In this document: piece by piece, positions 3,982 to 58,069 of the stretch
Layout: each line of letters begins with the position of its first letter
Position numbering within the stretch: the stretch's first letter is position 1
Source: Cloacibacillus sp.
Lineage (GTDB): Bacteria > Synergistota > Synergistia > Synergistales > Synergistaceae
DNA: 64,000 bases
Direction of reading: 5' to 3'
Assembly (NCBI GenBank): GCA_036655895.1
Contig: JAVVPF010000005.1
Coordinates: 1 to 64,000 of the forward strand
Made by a program: the position numbers and the translations under genes
The notes under the pieces: generated by a model
Database searches by the model: none
Told to the model about the DNA's origin: nothing
What the model saw: only the letters and a program-made list of their open reading frames with translations

Positions 3982-4559
3982 TGTCCTACCTCGCACTGTT
4001 TATAAGCTCCATTTTCGTACAGAACATACTGCTCGCGCGCTTTCTCGGCTGCTGCCCCTTCCTTGGGGTCTCAAGCCAGCTTGAGACGGCGAAGGGCATG
4101 GGCGTCGCGGTCGTATTCGTAACCACCTTCGCCGCGATAATGACATGGCTGGCCTATGAGTTCATCCTCGTTCCGATGGGGCTCGAATATCTCTACACGC
4201 TGGCCTTCATACTGATAATAGCGGCGCTCGTCCAGTTCGTAGAGATAGTGCTCAAAAAGGTGATGCCGGGGCTTTACAAGTCGCTTGGCATCTTCCTCCC
4301 GCTCATTACGACAAACTGCGCCGTGCTCGGCGTGGCAGTCATAAACATGAACGAAAAATACGGACTGCTTGAGTCGATCGTAAACGCGGTAGGCTCATCC
4401 GCGGGCTTTTTGCTCGCCATCGTGCTGATGGCCGGCATCCGCGAACGCATTGAGATGAACACGGAGATGCCGCGCTGCCTGCGCGGGCTTCCGATAGCGC
4501 TGGTGACGGCGGGGCTCATGTCGATAGCCTTCATGGGCTTCAACGGCCTCATCAAGTAA
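3981..4559 (+). CDS. rnfA: Rnf complex membrane subunit RnfA
   Basis: Partner of RnfE in the membrane core, 192 residues, six hydrophobic segments, with the conserved stretch QNILLARFLGCCPFLGVS near the N-terminus supplying the cysteine that coordinates the intramembrane Fe-S cluster in homologues. The ATG overlaps the rnfE stop, and rnfB follows after a few bases with its Shine-Dalgarno touching the rnfA stop. Length and sequence match the family closely. Confidence 0.95.
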   Translation: MSYLALFISSIFVQNILLARFLGCCPFLGVSSQLETAKGMGVAVVFVTTFAAIMTWLAYEFILVPMGLEYLYTLAFILIIAALVQFVEIVLKKVMPGLYKSLGIFLPLITTNCAVLGVAVINMNEKYGLLESIVNAVGSSAGFLLAIVLMAGIRERIEMNTEMPRCLRGLPIALVTAGLMSIAFMGFNGLIK

Positions 4560-4571
4560 GGAGGAATGATT

Positions 4572-5438
4572 ATGGAAGGTATGCTCTATCCAATGCTTGT
4601 AATGGGCGGCCTGGGAGTAGTCTTCGGCGGCCTCCTTGCTTTCGCCTCCGAAAAATTCAAGGTCGAGGTCGACCCGCGCCAGAGTGAGATACGCGCGAAA
4701 CTTCCCGGCGCCAACTGCGGCGGCTGCGGATTTCCCGGCTGCGACGGCTACGCCGACGCCTGCGTCAACGCCGGCGCGAAACCTAACCTCTGCGCCGCGG
4801 CAGGCCCCGAAGTAGCGGCGGAAATAGCCGCCATTTTGGGCGTAGCGGCCGAGGAGGCCGAACCGATGGTGGCCTACGTAAAATGTCAGGGCACGACGCA
4901 GAAGACCGTCAAGGACTGCGTCTATATGGGCGTCCACGACTGCCGCGAGGCCGCTGTAGTGCCTGGCAAGGGCCCCAGCGCCTGCACCTTCGGCTGCATG
5001 GGCTTTGGCACCTGCGTCTCTGTCTGCGCCTTTGGCGCAGTGAAAATAGCGGACGGCGTAGCTAAAGTCGACCCGGAAAAATGCGTCGCATGCGGCGCCT
5101 GCGTAAACGAATGTCCGCGCAGCGTCATCACGCTCGTCCCCAGGAAATCAAAGGTCCAGGTCGCCTGCAGTAACCCGCTGAAAGGCCCGCTGGTAAAACA
5201 GGTCTGCTCCGTGGGCTGCATAGGGTGCGGCATCTGCGCCAAGGTCTGCCCCGTCAAAGCCGCTACGTTAAACGGCGCGCTTGCGCAGATAGACCCCGCG
5301 ACCTGCATAAACTGCGGCCTGTGCGCCACAAAGTGCCCCGTAAAGGCCATAACGGACTCACGCCCGCCGCGCGTGCTGCCCCCAATGCCGCCTGTGAACG
5401 CTGCGGAAGAAAAAAGCTCGCAGCCCGTCTCCGCATAA
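4572..5438 (+). CDS. rnfB: Rnf complex ferredoxin-type subunit RnfB
   Basis: Electron-entry subunit that accepts electrons from reduced ferredoxin. A hydrophobic N-terminal anchor (residues 1-25) is followed by the CGGCGFPGCDGYADAC cluster near residue 49 and then four ferredoxin-like cysteine motifs, more than the two of E. coli RsxB but usual for anaerobe RnfB. The start at 4572 is preferred over the ATG at 4566 because GGAGGA (4560-4565) abuts the earlier one and lies 6 bases before the later one. The protein is 288 residues with a proline-rich, charged tail. It is the last gene of the operon and is followed by a terminator. Confidence 0.95.
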   Translation: MEGMLYPMLVMGGLGVVFGGLLAFASEKFKVEVDPRQSEIRAKLPGANCGGCGFPGCDGYADACVNAGAKPNLCAAAGPEVAAEIAAILGVAAEEAEPMVAYVKCQGTTQKTVKDCVYMGVHDCREAAVVPGKGPSACTFGCMGFGTCVSVCAFGAVKIADGVAKVDPEKCVACGACVNECPRSVITLVPRKSKVQVACSNPLKGPLVKQVCSVGCIGCGICAKVCPVKAATLNGALAQIDPATCINCGLCATKCPVKAITDSRPPRVLPPMPPVNAAEEKSSQPVSA

Positions 5439-47688: not shown

Positions 47689-47702
47689 ACGAATCGTAAA
47701 AA

Positions 47703-47850
47703 TTTAGCGTCTGAAACGCCAGGGAATTTGGTTGAACGCCAAAGCGGCCCCGCCACTGTAGCCATGACGAAATCGCGGTATCACTGAAAAAGCGGCATTT
47801 TTTGGGAAGATGCGAGAGTAGGGGGATTGGAAGCCAGGAGACCTGTTTCA
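47703..47850 (+). promoter_or_regulatory. Cobalamin riboswitch
   Basis: The conserved core of cobalamin (AdoCbl) riboswitches is visible: GCGTCTGAAACGCC stem, GGGAA, GGTTGAACGCC, the nearly invariant CCCGCCACTGTA (47749-47760) and the B12-box-like end AAGCCAGGAGACCTG (47831-47845). It is on the plus strand, just after a strong promoter, and the first gene downstream is the aconitase-family hydratase. No typical T-run terminator follows, so control may work through structure near the leader or ribosome binding site. B12 riboswitches normally turn expression off when B12 is present. Confidence 0.93.
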
Positions 47851-48204
47851 GCCGACGAGAAAAGAATTCGCGCGGGCGGATGCTGTTTTTTGGACATCAC
47901 TGCATGTATTTGCAGAGGTCTTTAAGTGTTGTCTGCGCGGATATGGCAGGCGGCATTTTTTTTAGCTCCAGTTTGTGGAGCGCGCCTTTAGCATCTATCA
48001 CAATTAAATATATGACCGGATAAATGTAAGTAATAAATAATATACCAACGTATATTTTAGAGTTTACAAGACGTCTGGGTCATCAAATAAAAAGAAAGGA
48101 GCGCGCGGCTGTCGGATAAGTTCGGTCAAAAGGAATGTAAATAGTGTGAATTATTTAGCAAATTAGGGGAAATTTAAGAGAACAGCAAAAGGAGCTGGAA
48201 AAAT
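47851..48204 (+). other. Leader region between riboswitch and hydratase gene
   Basis: No convincing gene. It contains a small hairpin GCTCCA / TGGAGC (47965-47981), an AT-rich stretch and the ribosome binding site region AAAAGGAG before 48205. The 47-residue reading frame at 47879-48022 has no ribosome binding site and does not look like a protein. The leader may be the expression platform, or mark a gene lost between riboswitch and hydratase. Confidence 0.4.
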
Positions 48205-54651: not shown

Positions 54652-56097
54652 TTATGCCTGTGATTTTTCCAGAGCGGGGGCCTGTGCAAAAGCCGCGCAG
54701 AGCGCAAATACCGCGGCGGAGATCAGCACTCCGGGGACTATCGGGTGTATCGCGCCAAGAAGGGCGGGGGCGGCAAGGCCTGTAATTGCCTTTGACGTTG
54801 AGGCGTAGGCCGCGGCGTACCAGGCTATGGAGCCGAAGAAGCCTCCCAGCGAACTGAAAAGCGCCGCCTGCGGGCCGGCTTTTGGGCCGAAGGCGAGCAG
54901 TCCGAGGTATGGGACCATTATCGCGCAGGCAAGCAGCGTCCAGCTCGTCGCACAGATGACGGCGATTATTGACGAGCTCTTGAGAGCAAAGAGGCCGCTT
55001 CCCAGAGTGCAGAGGATAACCACCGCGCGCCACGACCAGCCCTTCAGCTCCTTTTTAAAGACGTCGCGTCCGAGGCTGCCGCTTGCTATATGAAGCAGCG
55101 CAGAGGCCGTCGAAAGGGAGGCGGAGACGATGGCCAGAGCGAAAAACTGTTGTCCCAGCGCGGGAAGCAGCAGATGAACCAGCGTCGGAAGCACAGTATC
55201 GGGGTTTGTTATGCCGTCGCCGAGCATTACGCGTGAAAGGGCGCTTGCGAAATATGCTCCGCCTACGACGACGGAAAGCGCAAGCATCGCAAGAGGGGCC
55301 GCCTTCTTCGTCTCTTCAACGCTGCGCAGCGCGAAATGGCGCTGTATAAGCTGCGGCTGCGCCCAGATTCCGACAGAGGTCACTATCGTGAGGAAGATCA
55401 CATTGAGGCCGCCCGCCCCGCTGCTTAAGGCGAGAAATCCGTTGTCCGCGCCCTTAGCCGGCGGAAGAGCTGCAAGCTGCTGCAATCCGGCGACGGGGCC
55501 GCCCACCGCTTTGAGCAGCGCGATAAGCAGCGCGCCTACGCCTATTATCATCACAAGTCCCTGAATGGCCTCCGTATAAAGCACCCCGCGCAGACCGCCC
55601 CAGATCACCGAAAGTCCTACCACGGCGACCAGCGCAAAAAGCGCCGCGCTTTCTGAGATTGGAAGAACCCCCGCCACCATCACAGCTGCGCCTTTGAAGA
55701 CCGCAGAGCCGTAAATGACCAAGAGAACGACGGATATAGCGCCGATGAACGTCTGTAGCACCGGTATCTGATAGGCCTTTGCAAGCAGCTCCGCGGGCGT
55801 GCGCGCGTCAAGCTTCCTCTGCCAGAGGCGCGTCGGCCAAGCAAGGTATTTGTACACGAACCACGTTCCGAACCATACGTTGCCCGCCGCCACAAGAAGC
55901 ATCTGAAGCCCGAAAAGGTAACAGAGGCCGCCGAAGCCTACGAGCGCCACCGCTGAAATATAGGTGGCGACGTATGCCAGCGCCTGCACCGCGACGCCGA
56001 CCTTTCCTGGAAGCAGCGCGTCGTGGCTGCGCGAGTATTTTGCTATAAGGACGAGTATAAGAGCGTAGCCTATCCAAAGCGGCGCGAAGGTGAACAT
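54652..56097 (-). CDS. Sodium:solute symporter (SSS family), likely tyrosine-regulated
   Basis: A 481-residue permease with about 13 hydrophobic segments of the SSS (PutP/PanF-like) family: GGLRGVLYTEAIQGLVMIIG near residue 185, and ALAIVSASLSTASALLHIAS near residue 330. It lies two bases downstream of a 31-residue membrane subunit and behind a leader with a tyrosine-rich peptide and terminator, which points to tyrosine or another aromatic amino acid as substrate. Substrate is inferred from regulation, not the protein sequence. Confidence 0.88.
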   Translation of the reverse strand: MFTFAPLWIGYALILVLIAKYSRSHDALLPGKVGVAVQALAYVATYISAVALVGFGGLCYLFGLQMLLVAAGNVWFGTWFVYKYLAWPTRLWQRKLDARTPAELLAKAYQIPVLQTFIGAISVVLLVIYGSAVFKGAAVMVAGVLPISESAALFALVAVVGLSVIWGGLRGVLYTEAIQGLVMIIGVGALLIALLKAVGGPVAGLQQLAALPPAKGADNGFLALSSGAGGLNVIFLTIVTSVGIWAQPQLIQRHFALRSVEETKKAAPLAMLALSVVVGGAYFASALSRVMLGDGITNPDTVLPTLVHLLLPALGQQFFALAIVSASLSTASALLHIASGSLGRDVFKKELKGWSWRAVVILCTLGSGLFALKSSSIIAVICATSWTLLACAIMVPYLGLLAFGPKAGPQAALFSSLGGFFGSIAWYAAAYASTSKAITGLAAPALLGAIHPIVPGVLISAAVFALCAAFAQAPALEKSQA

Positions 56098-56098
56098 T

Positions 56099-56194
56099 TT
56101 ATACGGCCCTCCTTGCGATCATTACGACCGACCAGGCCGTACTCCAAAGAAGCGAGGCTCCCGCGCAAACTACCCAAAGATCCGTTCCAAACAT
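56099..56194 (-). CDS. Small accessory membrane subunit of the symporter
   Basis: A 31-residue hydrophobic peptide (MFGTDLWVVCAG... ending MIARRAV), one membrane helix with a positive end. GAGGAG lies 8 bases before the ATG, and the stop is followed almost at once by the symporter start. Tiny partners of this sort occur next to SSS symporters in many bacteria (as MetS with MetP). Too short for most gene finders. Confidence 0.75.
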   Translation of the reverse strand: MFGTDLWVVCAGASLLWSTAWSVVMIARRAV

Positions 56195-56251
56195 ATTACA
56201 TTCTCCTCTCAAATTCTCTATATAAACTATAAAATTCTTTCGCGAGCATAC

Positions 56252-56288
56252 AAAAAAGGGCCGCTGCCCCTGCGGGCGGCGGTCCTTT
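56252..56288 (-). terminator. Attenuator terminator in the symporter leader
   Basis: On the minus strand, AAAGGACCGCCGCCC pairs with GGGCAGCGGCCCTTT (two mismatches) across a short loop and runs into TTTTTT. It lies between the leader peptide stop and the accessory-subunit gene, where an attenuator terminator is expected. Confidence 0.85.
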
Positions 56289-56324
56289 GAAGTGGCACTC
56301 ACATGAATTACTCTATGCGGTCTG

Positions 56325-56426
56325 TTACTTCGCGGAAAACACCAAAAGCCCCGAGGCATCGTATGTGCGGGGATAAGCATAAGAGTAATAATAGTAATAA
56401 CGTTTTTTAGATATTGCCTCTCCCAT
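56325..56426 (-). CDS. Tyrosine-rich leader peptide
   Basis: A 33-codon reading frame with AGGAGG about 8 bases before its ATG. Eight of its residues are tyrosine: 10-14 consecutively, then 16, 18 and 22. It sits between a strong promoter and a terminator, ahead of the symporter genes. In transcription attenuation, ribosome stalling at scarce charged tRNA-Tyr on such codons prevents terminator formation. The arrangement predicts induction by tyrosine starvation. Too short for gene finders; coding is supported by ribosome binding site, position and composition. Confidence 0.85.
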   Translation of the reverse strand: MGEAISKKRYYYYYSYAYPRTYDASGLLVFSAK

Positions 56427-56482
56427 CACAAAAGCCTCCTTTTCGCGTCGAAAATCTTTACCGCTTTTCGTAAGTAAAGTGA

Positions 56483-56511
56483 ATAATACACGAGCCGCAA
56501 AAAGATGTCAA
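56483..56511 (-). promoter_or_regulatory. Promoter of the leader-symporter unit
   Basis: On the minus strand TTGACA (56506-56511), 17 bp, TATTAT (56483-56488). It is a near-consensus sigma-70 promoter placed just after the serine dehydratase stop. Confidence 0.88.
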
Positions 56512-56542
56512 GCTAAACTTTTGAACATCTTTCTGACGGCAG

Positions 56543-58069
56543 CTATCTCAGCCGTTTCATCGCTTTTGCTTCGGGTGCCGCAGCTATTCCGCCAAGCGAG
56601 GTGCATCGCAGCTCCGGCGGCAGCATCATTCCGCTTGAATAGACCGCGTCCACCGTGCCGTCGATGCCTATCGGGTTGACGTAGCCGCCCAGAATGAGGT
56701 CTGCACAGACGAAGGCCTGCGAGGCGAACGAGGCGTTGCGCGTGTGGCACGGCAGCTCAACGGTCGTCTGCACAAGGTCGCAGACCAGCCCCATCGCGTT
56801 CTGGAACATTATAGCTGCCGCGTCCGCAGCCTGCGCGGCCGTGCCACCTGCGGCGCAGGTCACAGCGGCTGCCGCCATTGCGCCCGCAGCTCCGATCTCC
56901 ACCTGGCAGCCGCAGACCTCTGCGGCAAAAGTGCCGCGCTTTGCAAGCACCCATCCCGCCGCCCCCGCCGCCCACATCGCGTTAAGCACCGTTTTGCGCG
57001 GCATCTTTAAATCTTCAAGCAGCGTCACCGCCACGCCCGGGAGCACCCCGGCAGAGCCGCCCGTCGGCGCGGCGCAGACTATCCCCTGTCCGCTGTTGAC
57101 CTGCATCGCAGCCATAGCGCGCGCCGCGGCCTTAGTGTGAATGCCGCCAAGCGCAAGGCGGCCGGCGGCCTCCGCCTCCATTATTTTTTTCGCGGAAGGT
57201 CGCAGCAGGAACATGCCCGGGCAGTCGTCAGAAAGCCCAAGCGCCACCGCTGCCTCCATAACTGCAAGCCGTGCGTCCATAGCCGCGTTTAATTCTTCCT
57301 TTGATTTCCCAAGGAGGCGCGACTCGTATTCAAGCGCCGCCTCCCCAAGAGAGAGCCCCGTCTCTGTGGCGTATTTCACCATCCCCGCGCCGTCCGTATA
57401 TATCTCATAGCCTACCGGCGGGAAGAAGACCGCCTCCGCGCGCTTGATATCAACCACGCTCTCCTCCTTGCGCAGCTTTTCTATCAGGTCGGGCGAAAAG
57501 CGCGTGTAAGATGAAAGCAGCGTGAAGAATTTGCCGTCGGCCTGTGACGTGTGGACTTCACCCGCGCCACCTGTCACCCCTGCTTCAAGCTCCTCCTGAG
57601 ACTCTATAAAGAGGTAATTCGCGCCGCCGTCGATCTCAACGGGGCAGCCGTTGAGCCGGCGCATCAAAAAAGCGCCCCCGCCCGTGGAATCGGCAACGGC
57701 GGTAAGCATCGCCCCAAAGCCCATTTCGGCGCTTATCTTTATACTGTTTGGATGACATGCCTCCGAGAAGGGCGCAACGTCAAAGAGGACGGCGACGCCA
57801 GCCTCACGGCATAATTCCTTTGCCCGCTTAAATCTATGGTCAGTTAAAGGCAATCCTAAAATACCCATAATAAGAGCTAAATCGCTGCCCTGTTCGCGGC
57901 AGCACCCGGCAATCGAGCTTCCCGGGGCAAAAGTAAAGGTTATCTGCTCCGGCAGCATCCCCGCAAAGCCTCTAAAAAGCTTGGCAATATGATACGGCCC
58001 CGCCGTGTGCGAACTGGAAGAGCCAGGCATAACAGGCCCTATCACATTGTTAAGAATACTAACGGCCAT
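56543..58069 (-). CDS. sdaA: L-serine ammonia-lyase, iron-sulfur type, single chain
   Basis: Converts L-serine to pyruvate and ammonia with a 4Fe-4S cluster. In 508 residues the beta-like domain is N-terminal (VMPGSSSSHTAGPYHIAK, residues 13-30) and the alpha domain C-terminal (CPGMFLLRPSAKK, VCGCQVEIGAAGAMAA, ELPCHTRN), where the cysteines bind the cluster. The fused beta-alpha order matches single-chain enzymes. GAGGAG lies before the ATG. It is transcribed divergently from the CRISPR operon and is followed by the tyrosine-leader unit. Confidence 0.93.
   Translation of the reverse strand: MAVSILNNVIGPVMPGSSSSHTAGPYHIAKLFRGFAGMLPEQITFTFAPGSSIAGCCREQGSDLALIMGILGLPLTDHRFKRAKELCREAGVAVLFDVAPFSEACHPNSIKISAEMGFGAMLTAVADSTGGGAFLMRRLNGCPVEIDGGANYLFIESQEELEAGVTGGAGEVHTSQADGKFFTLLSSYTRFSPDLIEKLRKEESVVDIKRAEAVFFPPVGYEIYTDGAGMVKYATETGLSLGEAALEYESRLLGKSKEELNAAMDARLAVMEAAVALGLSDDCPGMFLLRPSAKKIMEAEAAGRLALGGIHTKAAARAMAAMQVNSGQGIVCAAPTGGSAGVLPGVAVTLLEDLKMPRKTVLNAMWAAGAAGWVLAKRGTFAAEVCGCQVEIGAAGAMAAAAVTCAAGGTAAQAADAAAIMFQNAMGLVCDLVQTTVELPCHTRNASFASQAFVCADLILGGYVNPIGIDGTVDAVYSSGMMLPPELRCTSLGGIAAAPEAKAMKRLR

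Follow-up and report, generated by a model that had tools for sequence, protein, structure and literature searches.

The closest described relatives of the locus analyzed here are ribosome-mediated attenuators with leader peptides. The E. coli pheL-pheA and pheST systems, together with the trp and his attenuators (PMC11802643, PMC9413887), have in common with it a leader ORF rich in codons for the cognate amino acid, alternative 1:2, 2:3 and 3:4 helices and a U-tracted terminator. However, they control biosynthesis or tRNA-synthetase genes, whereas the leader described here has Tyr codons and an unrelated sequence, is hosted by Synergistota and is directed at a transporter. The nearest case is the aroR leader of C. 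glutamicum aroF, which also has aromatic codons including Tyr: according to PMC11802643 (citing Neshat et al. 2014), it contains Phe-Tyr-Phe, responds to Phe but not to Tyr, and controls a DAHP synthase, while the Tyr leader precedes a symporter. The Salmonella mgtL/mgtCBR system (PMC3641672) is likewise a leader attenuator with regulatory (Pro) codons ahead of transport genes, but its transporter carries Mg2+ and not the sensed amino acid.

As regards phyletic distribution, the authors of PMC2965389 (2010) stated that leader-peptide systems were until then, to their knowledge, restricted to Proteobacteria and Actinobacteria, and added the Firmicutes. The Firmicutes His leaders (PMC9413887, PMC2965389) resemble the present case in being ribosome-mediated, in lying outside those two phyla and in having been found by comparison; they differ in their His codons and unrelated sequence. 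For Synergistetes, PMC9413887 describes the HisR repressor, in passages that make no mention of a leader-peptide attenuator in that group. Our search, which covered the open-access literature, recovered no Tyr-specific leader-peptide attenuator, so that priority can be claimed only tentatively, and none of the Rfam covariance models of the His, Phe, Trp, Leu and Thr leader families matched the Tyr leader. The mechanism is already known; to the extent that this could be verified, its novelty lies in the amino acid (Tyr), the type of target and the phylum.

Layout of the Tyr leader locus

The window, i.e. the entire 64,000-nucleotide stretch of Cloacibacillus sp. DNA that was analyzed, encodes on its minus strand, in this order, a promoter, a Shine-Dalgarno sequence, a Tyr-rich leader, a terminator, a 31-aa ORF and a symporter of the SSS family. 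Their features, leaving the terminator and the other RNA segments for the next section, are:

56483-56511, minus strand: sigma-70-type promoter TTGACA-17-TATTAT, from sequence and conservation in relatives
about 56441-56433 (approximate to a few bases), minus strand: Shine-Dalgarno AAAAGGAGG of the leader ORF, from sequence and kept in relatives
56325-56426, minus strand: leader ORF MGEAISKKRYYYYYSYAYPRTYDASGLLVFSAK of 33 codons with 8 Tyr (ATG at 56426, stop at 56327-56325), from sequence
56373-56399, minus strand: regulatory Tyr codons Y10-Y14, Y16 and Y18, from sequence, with Tyr kept in orthologous leaders
56361-56363, minus strand: eighth Tyr codon of the leader, Y22, from sequence
56099-56194, minus strand: 31-aa ORF MFGTDLWVVCAGASLLWSTAWSVVMIARRAV, single-TM-like, with a small ORF in the same place in orthologues
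54652-56097, minus strand: SSS-family Na+/solute symporter of 481 aa (PF00474)

The promoter boxes (TTGACA at 56511-56506 and TATTAT at 56488-56483, with a 17-nt spacer) match the consensus at 11/12 positions and form the sole promoter-like site between 55800 and 58600; as about 1.7 such sites are expected by chance in this region, the real support for the promoter comes from its conservation in relatives. The start codon of the leader ORF is immediately preceded by a GTG. Between this promoter and the terminator, the initial annotation had read a 33-codon frame with eight Tyr codons, five of them consecutive, and a good Shine-Dalgarno sequence, and our examination of the sequence agrees. Among 20,000 dinucleotide shuffles of the ORF, none had at least eight Tyr codons and a single one had a run of five; the Tyr richness is beyond chance. 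In the genome from which the window derives, a covariance model of the leader matches nothing but the Tyr leader below E = 0.1. The minimum free energy of the full leader is mildly unusual (z -1.92). As for other Tyr runs, the genome contains eight TAYTAYTAYTAY sites, two of which overlap within the Tyr leader, with a control pattern being equally frequent.

Just upstream of the attenuator, on the same strand, lies a gene for a 508-aa fused L-serine dehydratase with the beta and alpha parts in one chain (56543-58069). Further away in the window is a cobalamin riboswitch on the plus strand (47697-47864; RF00174, 79.6 bits).

Exclusive helices and the modelled position of the ribosome

We propose that the locus is very probably a ribosome-mediated transcription attenuator, which monitors the charging of tRNA-Tyr and governs a transcript of two genes, those of the 31-aa partner and of the symporter, the cargo of the latter likely being tyrosine or a direct precursor. 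The proposal is built on sequence and comparison, namely the layout, the conservation of the Tyr codons, the covariation of mutually exclusive helices and the re-specification of codons in paralogues; from these we infer that the ribosome stalls, that the locus responds to tyrosine and what the symporter carries. The RNA elements of the predicted switch are:

56368-56372, minus strand: segment 1, CCCCG directly 3' of Tyr codon Y18, pairing with CGGGG at 56349-56353
56327-56353, minus strand: segment 2, CGGGGC....GGTG....TCC..GAAGT, from folding and covariation
56274-56293, minus strand: segment 3, ACTTC...GGA.CCGCCGCCC, the 3' half of the antiterminator, containing the terminator 5' arm
56252-56288, minus strand: intrinsic terminator hairpin (3:4) and T-tract, from folding and covariation

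Segment 2 serves both as the 3' half of the 1:2 hairpin and as the 5' half of the antiterminator, and covers the end of the leader ORF together with the initial base of the stop codon. As long as Tyr-tRNA is abundant, the leading ribosome would pass the Tyr codons and reach the stop codon in which segment 2 ends, where it would keep segment 2 off segment 3, allowing the 3:4 terminator to end transcription. When Tyr-tRNA is scarce, the ribosome would instead stall at the Tyr codons and cover segment 1; segments 2 and 3 would then pair, no terminator would form and the symporter would be made.

RNA folding, which had been suggested as a check along with the initial annotation, did uncover a competing antiterminator, and its pairing covaries. 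The covariation figures, which lean towards the structure since relatedness is not kept in the shuffles and the window sequence itself supplied the structure, come from an alignment of 23 leader sequences with 500 shuffles per helix: the antiterminator (2:3) shows changes on both sides in 10/16 pairs and scores 0.278, a value reached by 0/500 shuffles (0.185 +/- 0.016), while the cells with a change on both sides number 26, the shuffles having 8.7 +/- 3.5 (0/500); the terminator has 90.6% of cells paired, both-side changes in 7/13 pairs and a score of 0.271 against 0.134 +/- 0.014 (0/500); and the 1:2 hairpin, with 83.5% of cells paired and both-side changes in 3/5 pairs, is more weakly supported (7/500 shuffles). 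The stronger argument for the antiterminator is offered by the controls in which the partner was slid by 1-3 columns, breaking the pairing and dropping the score to 0.07-0.19, and by the wholly different sequences of distant members. For instance, GAAAGC pairs with GCTTTC in locus L064, and GGGAAAGG with CCTTTCCC in family f11. Moreover, relatives folded singly without segment 1 are predicted to adopt much the same 2:3 register (13 sequences).

The terminator stem of the window leader (56288-56255) has a dG of -21.6 kcal/mol and is followed by the T-tract. When the RNA is folded at full length, all 13 leaders computed (13/13) have the terminator in their minimum-energy structure; hence, the decision of the switch must be kinetic, as in classical attenuators. 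We modelled how accessible the terminator 5' arm is at the stage when its 3' arm has yet to be transcribed: accessibility averages 0.27 with the ribosome stalled on the Tyr codons and 0.66 with the ribosome at the stop codon, and is lower in the stalled state in 22/22 leaders, although the RNA in the at-stop state is shorter, which by itself raises accessibility. With no ribosome the modelled mean is 0.36, and the terminator arm is not clearly freed. Measured against shuffled upstream segments, the effect across the family is moderate (mean z -1.25); for the window leader, 23/60 shuffled upstream segments hide the terminator arm equally well, its own antiterminator not being unusually strong.

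Conservation and codon changes across Synergistota

Orthologues of the symporter at >=56% identity are present in 26/188 Synergistota genomes. One of these 26 loci ends at the symporter; each of the 25 with upstream DNA (symporter identity 100% to 56%) has a Tyr-codon leader and a terminator in the same place, counting that of G023, which is visible only from inside the Tyr run onward owing to a contig end. The comparative search envisaged at the outset thus finds Tyr codons retained in the homologous leaders of 25/25 loci, with 2-8 in each full-length leader: the maximum of 8 is reached in the window and G020, and the minimum of 2 in the distant G005. Tyr accounts for 128/832 codons (15%) of the orthologous leaders, as TAT in 91 cases and TAC in 37. 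An SD-like stretch precedes every full-length orthologous leader, and a TTGACA occurs within 130 nt upstream of the start in all of them except the contig-end fragment L053. A further, similar leader, MKLLRAVRDNRYYFTGVIY, occurs on L042, a contig that bears the label Desulfovibrio, ahead of a symporter fragment with 57% identity. These conserved Tyr codons, along with the covarying exclusive helices, bear out the initial description of the locus as a classic attenuator layout placed before a transporter.

They also bear on two readings in which the Tyr codons have no role. That a constitutive terminator merely separates transcription units next to a chance Tyr-rich ORF is scarcely credible: while terminator-like hairpins are indeed frequent in the region (9 found against 3.7 expected), this reading is already contradicted by the phylum-wide conservation of the promoter, the SD, the Tyr codons and the two exclusive helices. 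The second, in which the region is a T-box, a metabolite riboswitch or a protein-bound leader with an incidental Tyr ORF, draws on the prevalence of T-boxes in the phylum (35/41 genomes), including five matches in the window genome. Tyr T-boxes sense the charging of tRNA-Tyr and act on a terminator by binding the tRNA directly, with no translated leader; the present leader would share their signal and terminator target, but has a translatable ORF and no T-box match. We regard this reading as highly improbable because a scan of 56050-56550 against the Rfam families gives no match even with E <= 1 as the limit, the conserved core is that of a short attenuator, and the Tyr codons, SD and start codon are all conserved. 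The T-box model (RF00230), which does detect T-boxes elsewhere in the same genome, has no match in this region, and the T-box reading was rejected.

Running the leader covariance model over the phylum, we examined the matches beyond its training set. In G008 and G177, Tyr leaders precede a different SSS protein (28% identity) with no small partner in between. In G044 and G042 (L110, L113; family f11, outside the order of the window genome), Tyr leaders containing as many as ten Tyr codons (SYYAYYYYYYLYPARLRE) precede a DctP-type TRAP system, which makes the latter a second, unrelated candidate for the uptake of tyrosine or a Tyr precursor. Other matches differ in their codons:

L107:753-1059, plus strand, and L108 about 5195-5335, minus strand: mixed aromatic leaders in G015 and G159, with the RNA core in common with the Tyr leader
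L111:840-1018, plus strand, and L112 about 4190-4330, minus strand: Trp/Phe/Tyr leaders before aroE-aroD and the gene of a TctC-type binding protein, from a family of Synergistota that belongs to a different order
L116:930-1090 region, plus strand, and L117, L118, L114 and L115, minus strand: short Pro-codon ORFs before pyrroline-5-carboxylate reductase

The mixed leader of G015 and G159, FYFYWFFTFPR (MGKALLNKNFYFYWFFTFPRSFDASGFLAFFAK), precedes shikimate dehydrogenase (aroE), which is followed 3' by TctC transporter genes in G015 and by a TRAP system in G159. In G044 and G041, mixed aromatic leaders stand before aroE-aroD with a TctC-type gene, and this arrangement (L111, L112) suggests that an intermediate of the shikimate pathway is taken up and used under the control of attenuation. 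Within G015, the Tyr leader and the aromatic leader have 69% identity, with the RNA core kept and the codons differing. Such a change of codons in step with the regulated gene, on a retained RNA core, would be difficult to account for if the codons did not serve as the address. The Pro-codon ORFs (e.g. MARTFIINTNPSPCPSVVPGRCVFREGLVLS), which are weaker matches of the model and are also followed by a terminator, are candidate proline attenuators of proC.

The close relatives share, 3' of the Tyr codons, DNA coding for ...YPR....ASG.LVFSAK, and this apparent conservation of YxYPR followed by ASG..VFSAK would fit a TnaC-like arrest peptide, one responding to a ligand within the ribosome tunnel, whether free tyrosine or some other compound, and not to the charging of tRNA-Tyr. 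However, G013 (L051) and G009 (L056) keep the same DNA in another reading frame, to give RLGASGVFFEV and RLGANGVFCEF, and L064 and L065, the leaders of Thermovirga type, read the CCCCG one base out of frame (TTT ACC CCG). From these frame changes it follows that the region downstream of the Tyr codons is conserved at the level of RNA and not of peptide, the shared peptide stretch being a by-product, whereas the Tyr stretch is conserved as codons. The divergent leader peptides have only their Tyr codons in common, and the paralogues keep the RNA while altering codons with the regulated gene. Given the frame changes and the codon swaps, we rejected the arrest peptide, which we consider very improbable, in favor of an attenuator responding to tRNA-Tyr charging.

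The symporter, its small partner and the probable cargo

The symporter matches PF00474 (SSF) at 2.1e-28 (99.8 bits against a cut-off of 22.8) and the TIGR00813 superfamily below its cut-off. It is neither a PutP (proline) nor a PanF (pantothenate) symporter by the NCBIfam equivalog models, whose cut-offs it does not reach (panF 94 against 328, putP 67 against 515). The 31-residue partner that the initial annotation had assigned to it proves to be conserved: its stop codon lies one base before the symporter ATG, and a small ORF occurs between terminator and symporter in the orthologues, inclusive of the most distant members. The protein displays the pattern xxDxWVxxxGASLLWSxxWSxxxIxR and belongs to no family in an NCBIfam search.

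With regard to the cargo, tyrosine is our best guess, with a Tyr precursor as its main rival; it is from the Tyr-tRNA sensor that we infer tyrosine as the substrate. The window genome has no match to the prephenate dehydrogenase models PF02153 and PF20463, for which controls were positive, and the organism may consequently need tyrosine from outside. The idea that the symporter marks tyrosine auxotrophs is nevertheless not supported, as its presence does not track the loss of PF02153 (present in 11/19 near-complete symporter-bearing genomes against 61/116 near-complete genomes overall).

It is possible, if rather unlikely, that a Tyr-tRNA attenuator here governs the entry of something other than tyrosine, such as a precursor (4-hydroxyphenylpyruvate, prephenate), a tyrosine peptide or another nutrient. 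In the same phylum, the aroE or aroE-aroD genes that Phe/Tyr/Trp leaders precede have TTT or TRAP transporter genes after them, which fits the uptake of pathway intermediates, and a Tyr-only leader also stands ahead of a TRAP system, a class of transporters often carrying organic acids. The symporter itself has no solved relative in a single-sequence (phmmer) search, and its profile matches to solved structures are weak and limited to NIS and SGLT1. On the other hand, Tyr-only codons disfavor a general aromatic precursor, and a precursor is further opposed by the apparent lack of prephenate dehydrogenase in the window genome and by the gene neighborhood, where no tyrosine-synthesis gene adjoins the symporter and the upstream neighbor is the serine dehydratase.

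With tyrosine as the favored cargo, it appears reasonably probable that a single switch core has been copied in Synergistota and re-addressed by codon swaps, on the one hand to Tyr uptake and on the other, with Phe/Tyr/Trp codons, to aroE with transporter genes; that this is the first Tyr-specific ribosome-mediated attenuator; and that the SSS subfamily with its partner, the second SSS protein and the TRAP system are routes of tyrosine uptake. SSS substrates are hard to predict from sequence, and for this orphan SSS subfamily with its small partner a codon-addressed attenuator provides a specific and testable substrate hypothesis. Tyrosine would thereby join the amino acids sensed through leader-peptide attenuation, and the mechanism would extend to Synergistota, a phylum of amino-acid fermenters in which T-boxes are in use as well, where it would represent a natural case of one switch core being re-targeted through codon changes.
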